A stretch of DNA of 64,000 bases from the NCBI GenBank assembly GCA_022823465.1, contig JAJEHX010000053.1, positions 62,001-126,000 of the forward strand, given 5' to 3'. The notes below the pieces were generated by a model, which saw nothing but the letters and a program-made list of their open reading frames with translations, was not told the origin of the DNA and did not search any database. Shown in pieces: positions 52,776-53,839 of the stretch. Position numbers and translations under genes: made by a program. Numbering within the stretch: the stretch's first letter is position 1; every line of letters starts with the position of its first letter. The stretch comes from Candidatus Latescibacterota bacterium. Lineage in GTDB: Bacteria; JAAXHH01.

Positions 52776-52831
52776 ATGCTATTGGCAGCCGCGATATGCC
52801 ATTTTGTCATATTCTGCCAAATTGGCATATT
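52776..52831. promoter_or_regulatory. Repeated inverted-repeat sites upstream of the sigma-54 promoter (candidate enhancer)
   Basis: TGCCAAATTGGCATATT (52815-52831) contains the perfect palindrome TGCCAA-A-TTGGCA. A related copy TGCCATTTTGTCATATT lies at 52797-52813 and a third, TGCTATTGGCA, at 52777-52787. They sit about 130-190 bp before the sigma-54 element, the usual distance for an enhancer-binding protein. Binding factor unknown. Confidence 0.55.
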
Positions 52832-52961
52832 TTATGTGGTCATACCCCAATAGTCGAATCTTCCGGGTATTTCTCGAATTCCCTCTGTTTTGCCCTAACC
52901 GTCTTGGAATCAACATGTTACGGTTCTTTTTCTACTTTCTTTCGGATGCATTTTTTCAAAC

Positions 52962-52977
52962 TGGCACGGTCTTTGCA
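52962..52977 (+). promoter_or_regulatory. Consensus sigma-54 (-24/-12) promoter
   Basis: TGGCACG-N4-TTGCA at 52962-52977 matches the RpoN consensus exactly, with GG and GC 12 bp apart. It points toward hsp20 (start 53117) and perhaps dnaK. No rpoN gene is in the window. Confidence 0.8.
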
Positions 52978-53116
52978 ATAACTATACTGCGGATGCCAGT
53001 TCAGCCGCATCGCCTGGGTTGCTTAACTAATGTACGCCGGCGACGGCCATTCGGTTCCGAAAGACAGCAAAGAGTATACAAAGCGTTTACCGTGTATCTT
53101 TAAAAGGGGGAGCATC

Positions 53117-53539
53117 ATGAGAGCGACAACCATTCTGCCGCTGCGTAACCTGCACAACCTGCAGACCGAGCTGGACGGCATGTTCCAGCATTTCCCGTTC
53201 CGTTCCGGACTCACGACCCGCTGGTCGCCCCGCGTGGACACGCACGAAACCGAGGACGCCTTCCTGGTCGCGGTGGACCTGCCGGGCGTGGCTTCCGACG
53301 ACGTGGCGATCAACTTGGAGAAGGGCGTGCTGACCGTAAGCGGCGAGCGCAAGAGTCCCTTCGGCCTCAATGGCGACGCGGAGCCGCAGTCCCGCGGCAA
53401 GTTCGAGCACGCTTTCCCGGTGCCCGACGCGGTGGATACCGAATCGATCGACGCGACGTACAAGGACGGCGTCATGACGATCACGCTGCGGAAGTCGAAG
53501 GAGTCGCAGCCCAGGCAGATTCCGATTACCGTGGCCTGA
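53117..53539 (+). CDS. hsp20: Small heat shock protein (Hsp20/alpha-crystallin)
   Basis: This 140-residue chaperone has the alpha-crystallin domain: WSPRVDTHETEDAFLVAVDLPGVASDDVAINLEKGVLTVSGERK, and the C-terminal FEHAFPVPDAVDTESIDATYKDGVMTITLRKSKESQPRQIPITV (I-x-I type tail). It holds unfolding proteins without ATP. AGGGGGAGC sets ATG 53117. The only strong promoter seen upstream is sigma-54-type. Four degenerate 54-bp repeats separate it from dnaK. Confidence 0.93.
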   Translation: MRATTILPLRNLHNLQTELDGMFQHFPFRSGLTTRWSPRVDTHETEDAFLVAVDLPGVASDDVAINLEKGVLTVSGERKSPFGLNGDAEPQSRGKFEHAFPVPDAVDTESIDATYKDGVMTITLRKSKESQPRQIPITVA

Positions 53540-53599
53540 GACCGCGGTCGGAGTGGACGAACCGCCGGGACGGGGCGAACCGCCTCGTCACGGAAAAGG

Positions 53600-53811
53600 G
53601 CATGGTCCGCCTCTGAACAAGGGGCGGACCGGTCCATTTTCTGGTTGAAGCGGGCACAGTCCGCCTCTATTCTGGGGCGGGCATGACCCGTTTTATTCAC
53701 GAGGGCCGGCCGGACTTGACCAACTGAAGGGTCTAGCGCGGCTTGCCTTTTCAAGAGGGCAGCCGGACTTGACTGTTTCAAAGGTCGAGCCCGGTCCGCC
53801 TTTTCCTGTTC
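53600..53811. repeat. Four degenerate ~54-bp tandem repeats between hsp20 and dnaK
   Basis: Copies begin near 53600, 53654, 53707 and 53761. The first two share GTCCGCCTCT and the last two share CCGGACTTGAC. The 300-bp spacer is otherwise empty. GCGTTTAC-type heat-shock operators (CIRCE) were not seen. Confidence 0.75.
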
Positions 53812-53839
53812 AAGGTAGTTTTCTTAGGAGCAACAACTC

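Follow-up and report, generated by a model that had tools for sequence, protein, structure and literature searches.

The control of heat-shock genes in bacteria is usually described as following one of two routes, sigma replacement (RpoH, SigB, RpoE) or the release of a repressor (HrcA, HspR, CtsR). Cases in which sigma-54 or its activators meet these genes are on record, according to the accounts quoted here: E. coli ibpB carries a sigma-54 promoter beside its sigma-32 promoter (Kuczynska-Wisnik 2001, in PMC4316790); in Myxococcus xanthus the NtrC-like HsfA activates lonD (Ueki and Inouye 2002, in PMC9109919), and hetero-oligomers of enhancer-binding proteins have been reported (PMC9109919). 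In Chlamydia, hrcA-grpE has tandem sigma-66/sigma-54 promoters (PMC8762339). A survey with promoter matrices published in 2025 predicts sigma-54 chaperone genes in Planctomycetota and Bacteroidota, the sites preceding groES, groEL, dnaK, dnaJ, grpE and hsp20 and also Lon- and Clp-type COGs, and it describes grpE and groES of B. thetaiotaomicron as sigma-54-dependent (PMC12316311). The name Latescibacterota does not occur in that survey, and a literature search combining this phylum with sigma factors and heat shock gave nothing on the subject, as judged by title. The initial annotation of the locus described here had called sigma-54 control of a small heat-shock gene uncommon, and this was a fair statement, the precedents being isolated (E. 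coli ibpB, and in silico predictions in other phyla).

The DNA analysed here (64,000 nt, "the window") comes from a Candidatus Latescibacterota genome (55 contigs, 3.86 Mb, 98% completeness). Its hsp20 gene, the subject of the initial annotation, looks like a single member of what is apparently a whole regulon. Judging from the sites themselves, their conservation, their restriction to five genes, their phasing and the presence of rpoN and of activators, we consider it very probable that this is a functional sigma-54 regulon of proteostasis genes which includes the hsp20 of the window. The features of the locus are collected in Table 1.

Table 1. Features of the hsp20 locus, in coordinates of the window
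Feature	Position	Strand	Basis
Divergent RpoD-like sigma factor gene, 288 aa	51876..52742	-	PF00140, PF04542, PF04545
Extra half-site, TGGCA-N9-TGCCA, its right half common with palindrome 1	52783..52801	strand-less	sequence
Enhancer palindrome 1, TGCCATTTTGTCA (TGCCA-TTT-TGTCA)	52797..52809	strand-less	sequence, alignment
Enhancer palindrome 2, TGCCAAATTGGCA (TGCCA-AAT-TGGCA)	52815..52827	strand-less	sequence, alignment
Sigma-54 -24/-12 element of hsp20, TGGCACGGTCTTTGCA (TGGCACG-GTCT-TTGCA)	52962..52977	+	pattern match, alignment
Predicted transcription start of hsp20	52988	+	12 nt after the -12 GC; from sigma-54 promoter geometry
Predicted 5' leader of hsp20	52988..53116	+	alignment
hsp20, small heat-shock protein, 140 aa	53117..53539	+	PF00011, E 1.6e-19
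dnaK, 659 aa	53840..55819	+	TIGR02350, 1012 bits, above cut-off

The full match to the RpoN consensus TGGCACG-N4-TTGCA that had been noticed in front of hsp20 is present exactly as described and is the sole exact match within the window; when two mismatches are allowed, one further match appears, against 5.5 expected. The element scores 11/11 on TGGCAC-N5-TTGC, with GG and GC 10 bp apart. Sigma-54 transcripts start about 12 nt after the -12 GC, which gives the predicted start in Table 1. The initial annotation had also pointed to related palindromic sites 130-190 bp upstream, and here again we agree with it: there are two palindromes, plus a TGGCA-N9-TGCCA arrangement that shares a half-site with the first of them, and the palindromes are centred about 141-160 bp ahead of the -24 element (about 141 bp for palindrome 2). 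The two palindromes are 18 bp apart, a distance that is constant in 11 genomes of the genus, and the TTGGCAG of the extra half-site is kept in 10/10 aligned genus genomes. The genome has the exact sequence TGCCAAWTTGGCA at just two loci, before this hsp20 and, twice, before clpB on contig C39.

One could object that a consensus match before a single gene may be due to chance. Taken alone, the promoter motif is indeed at chance level genome-wide (3 exact TGGCACG-N4-TTGC in 3.86 Mb, and 50 sites with one mismatch against 87 for the reversed control), and what makes it significant is its conservation together with its recurrence at other chaperone genes. The three exact sites precede this hsp20, the second hsp20 (contig C47) and a TonB-like gene (C8:47785), the last of which was rejected as a member of the regulon since its upstream block is different. 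The 10 aligned genus genomes show no change in the -24/-12 core or in the half-sites of either palindrome, while the spacer has diverged. The order sigma gene, hsp20, dnaK, dnaJ, with the sigma gene divergent, is kept in two other genera of the family (G012 and G013), where hsp20 also carries the -24/-12 element and is preceded by TGGCACAGGGTTTGC and TGGCACGGTGTTTGC; G013 retains one exact palindrome, TGCCAATATGGCA. A shared unit, made of a -24/-12 element (10-11/11) and two TGNCA-N3-TGNCA palindromes, also precedes the second hsp20, clpB, groES-groEL and lon. With such conservation in the genus and beyond it, and recurrence at four further proteostasis operons, we regard a chance match as ruled out for all practical purposes, and the proposed sigma-54 control of hsp20 gains support from the same observations.

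The recurrence can be given in numbers. We scored 54 upstream regions (five genes, 12 genus genomes and 4 outgroups) against dinucleotide shuffles, and found an element of at least 10/11 in 53 (0.3 expected) and at least two exact palindromes in 41 (0.01 expected), in a set that is biased to the extent that part of it was fetched by motif. The groES and hsp20 loci, which were picked by protein family alone, are free of this selection: the element is present at groES in 10/10 genomes (nine at 10-11/11, G013 at 9/11) and at hsp20 in the genus genomes where the gene was found. Sigma-54-like elements at groES are kept in all five genera sampled. Searching the 12 genus genomes for two palindromes within 30 bp gave 43 sites, of which 42 lie at the five genes, the exception (G003:C26:9513) being not palindromic; the reversed pattern gave 0 sites in the same genomes. 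The double pattern has 0 sites in the four outgroup genomes; what the outgroup genera have is a lone palindrome or degenerate copies. ClpB, Lon and DnaK score above the NCBIfam cut-offs. At the second hsp20 of the present genome (L127, G000 C47) the enhancers have decayed, with one or two mismatches (TGCCAAAATAGCA, TGACAATTTGAAA), and the -24/-12 element has no mismatch. The search of this assembly gave no full-length groES, probably because of an assembly gap; a sigma-54 match at C25:44102, first taken as the groES promoter of this genome, falls within a coding region. A single palindrome in G005 (C1:1446829) was likewise set aside as a chance occurrence, lying within coding sequence and having no -24/-12 element.

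The palindromes are separated by 17 bp at clpB, 18 and 19 bp at the two hsp20 genes, 27 bp at groES and 30-32 bp at lon. How far the -24 element lies from the nearer palindrome differs among genomes (94, 103, 114, 126 or 156 bp at clpB; 93, 103, 114 or 134 at lon; 122 or 133 at groES), with three lon promoters where it is just 28-29 bp. These enhancer-promoter distances vary by whole helical turns: among the periods scanned (6 to 15.5 bp), 10.5 bp gave the highest phase coherence (R 0.67 for 15 distances, Rayleigh p about 0.001; R 0.87 within genes), in a test made after the numbers had been seen and on a small set from related genomes. Such phasing fits an activator that would need to face the polymerase across a loop, and the whole-turn drift may be read as a natural record of activation by DNA looping.

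The palindromes might instead serve a repressor or a sigma-70 activator as operators, with sigma-54 elements that are secondary or unused. As 13-bp palindromes with TGNCA half-sites they resemble ordinary dimer sites, and sigma-70-like hexamers overlap them (TTGTCA-16-CATATT at 52804). They also precede the divergent sigma gene, whose start codon is 40-85 bp away, and their activator might affect this gene too. However, nearly every copy is followed, 80-160 bp downstream, by a conserved -24/-12 element, with the spacing drift just described, and an operator acting at the promoter would not yield the observed rate of -24/-12 matches. We therefore find this explanation very improbable.

The divergent gene itself codes for an RpoD-like sigma factor (260 bits; RpoH score 160, against a cut-off of 323) whose nearest solved chains are SigA/RpoD. 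It has no recognisable region 3, in place of which the genus shows a variable, acidic stretch of low complexity, which is shorter in G012 and G013. A further possibility is that HrcA/CIRCE or an RpoH-type sigma exerts the main control and that sigma-54 is auxiliary, as at E. coli ibpB. In favour of it, hrcA was found in 12/12 genomes searched, and it shares with grpE and dnaJ a separate operon that has no sigma-54 element. Yet the sigma factor beside hsp20 is below the RpoH cut-off, and CIRCE (TTAGCACTC-N9-GAGTGCTAA), sought before groES and hrcA, gave best matches with at least 6 mismatches out of 18, that is, no CIRCE-like site within 5 mismatches; HrcA/CIRCE control of groES-groEL was rejected for want of an operator. 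We consider this possibility quite improbable. Upstream of hrcA, a motif TTTTCGCTTGACA is kept across the family (L197 = G000 C8; L188-L195).

A ribosome-binding site, AAAGGGGGAG, precedes hsp20, and a weak hairpin can cover it. Much of the leader has changed in the 10 aligned genomes; its first 85 nt vary hardly at all across the genus. The leader contains a conserved short reading frame, ATG TAC GCC GGC GAY GGC CAT TCG GTT CCG AAA (MYAGDGHSVPK); its ends vary, and it lacks a clear ribosome-binding site. An RNA thermometer was considered and is not claimed, Rfam giving nothing relevant and the consensus fold having almost no covariation support. Downstream, the gap of 300 bp between hsp20 and dnaK (53540-53839) holds G+C-rich hairpins with terminator-like tails, which bear on whether the sigma-54 promoter reads into dnaK; a second sigma-54 site was sought in this gap and none was found. 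An hsp20-dnaK operon, with read-through into dnaK, is putative.

The initial reading depends on an rpoN gene and on enhancer-binding proteins encoded away from the locus, and the genome provides both. It encodes one RpoN, with AID, CBD and DBD (PF04552 E 6.9e-53; TIGR02395 414 bits against a cut-off of 277), and four enhancer-binding proteins, all outside the window: EBP1 and EBP2, in tandem on contig C39, the response regulator of contig C6, and an activator on C49. The last (no receiver, PspF-like) was rejected as the regulator since it does not belong to the core of the genus: only three strong activators occur in genomes like G001 and G005, which leaves the C6 regulator, EBP1 and EBP2 as the core. 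EBP1 and EBP2 both carry Sigma54_activat (PF00158, E about 1e-67) and a Fis-type HTH (PF02954), are core to the genus and have orthologues at 61-69% identity in other genera. The receiver of EBP1 has lost the acidic pair, and its phosphoacceptor Asp is replaced by Glu in G008, G012 and G013; that of EBP2 keeps the Asp and is partly intact. No kinase gene was seen beside the pair among the ORFs listed for G000, G001, G012, G013 and G014, and this, together with the degenerate receiver of EBP1, makes a phosphorylation-independent signal plausible. Behind its first AAA-lid-like stretch, EBP1 (L124 5884-9285) has another (PF25601, two stretches). A hetero-oligomer of EBP1 and EBP2 like HrpR/HrpS is conceivable.

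It may be, on the other hand, that the regulon is real and that its activator is the C6 regulator, phosphorylated by the neighbouring kinase, in which case the trigger would be an outside signal and not internal misfolding. The C6 protein is canonical, with a full receiver motif and a GAYTGA loop, it adjoins a dCache-HAMP-HisKA kinase, and it is as conserved as EBP1 and EBP2 (orthologues at 63-73% in other genera). Within the genus, the loop GAFTGA reads GAFTNA in EBP1 and GAFTDA in EBP2 (some outgroups have GAFTGA or GAFSGA), a point against the pair as activator. Against it stands the TonB/carboxypeptidase-like gene already mentioned (L009, L075, L077, L080, L086, L090, L093, L097), which has a conserved sigma-54 promoter of its own (TGGCACGTTGTTTGC or TGGCACGCTGTTTGC) and another conserved upstream block, containing GAAATTTATTTCGTGTT and free of TGNCA palindromes, so that at least two enhancer specificities are present. 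A paralogue of this gene adjoins the C6 pair, which is thus more likely to serve that class, and the TonB-like gene is perhaps its target; EBP1 and EBP2 have no other obvious target. All in all, we think the C6 alternative unlikely, and by elimination EBP1/EBP2, at somewhat better than even odds, are the leading candidates for the activator of the chaperone enhancers. An exact sigma-54 promoter lacking the palindromes also precedes an outer-membrane-like protein gene in G001 and G005 (L091, L104).

With EBP1/EBP2 as activator, the system might operate as follows. RNA polymerase with sigma-54 would form a closed complex before hsp20, at the -24/-12 element, an AAA+ enhancer-binding protein that assembles into hexamers would bind the two TGNCA-N3-TGNCA palindromes, the DNA would loop back, and ATP hydrolysis would open the promoter. 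Since the same enhancer-promoter unit would drive the second hsp20, clpB, groES-groEL and lon, one activator could raise all major chaperones and Lon jointly under proteotoxic stress. The orphan pair may be held off by free chaperone rather than switched by phosphorylation. The activity of these promoters, their induction by heat, the identity of the bound activator and the sensing of stress are what we infer from the data given above, the link with heat being suggested by the gene content of the regulon. PspF and PspA offer an analogy for the inhibition of an activator. That misfolding is sensed through chaperone titration is speculation, which we put forward as a possibility only. In its widest form, the idea would be that the principal heat-shock response of Latescibacterota is a sigma-54 response: the orphan pair, with its degenerate receiver, would itself detect misfolding, for instance on being let go by free DnaK, GroEL or Hsp20, and would then act from distant enhancers to induce every major chaperone and Lon, replacing sigma-32 and HrcA/CIRCE; we propose this tentatively.

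If true, a core chaperone regulon under sigma-54 would represent a third logic of heat-shock control, silent without an ATP-driven activator, with no leak and a steep response, and sigma-54 would gain a housekeeping-stress role in a phylum without a cultured model. The analysis names a testable enhancer code (paired TGNCA-N3-TGNCA) and a candidate pair of activators, and leads one to ask how misfolded protein would be sensed by an activator of this kind.

How does this compare with what has been described? Sigma-54/bEBP regulons of the NtrC, PspF and NifA type have the same -24/-12 promoter, upstream palindromes, AAA+ activator (PF00158, Fis-type HTH) and RpoN domains, but their targets are nitrogen, flagella, transport or envelope genes, whereas here they are core chaperones and Lon. 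The HrcA/CIRCE and sigma-32 (RpoH) regulons have the same target genes; in contrast to them, the present one has another promoter class, no CIRCE that we could find, and predicted activation from a distance instead of repression or sigma replacement. E. coli ibpB likewise has a sigma-54 promoter before a small heat-shock gene, which from the account quoted is one auxiliary promoter, whereas we find five proteostasis operons with a common enhancer code and no CIRCE. The survey predictions (PMC12316311) place promoters before chaperone genes, as here, with neither common enhancer sites nor a candidate activator given in the portion of that source drawn on. The HsfBA/lonD system of Myxococcus likewise joins an NtrC-like regulator to a heat-shock lon gene; as far as its quoted description goes, HsfA is phosphorylated by the hybrid kinase HsfB, whereas EBP1/EBP2 are orphans and the receiver of EBP1 is degenerate, and the regulon here also holds groES-groEL, clpB, two hsp20 genes and, putatively via hsp20, dnaK. 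The parts, then, are already known, and what appears to be new is the compact regulon, with a paired enhancer of its own, helical phasing and an orphan pair of activators.
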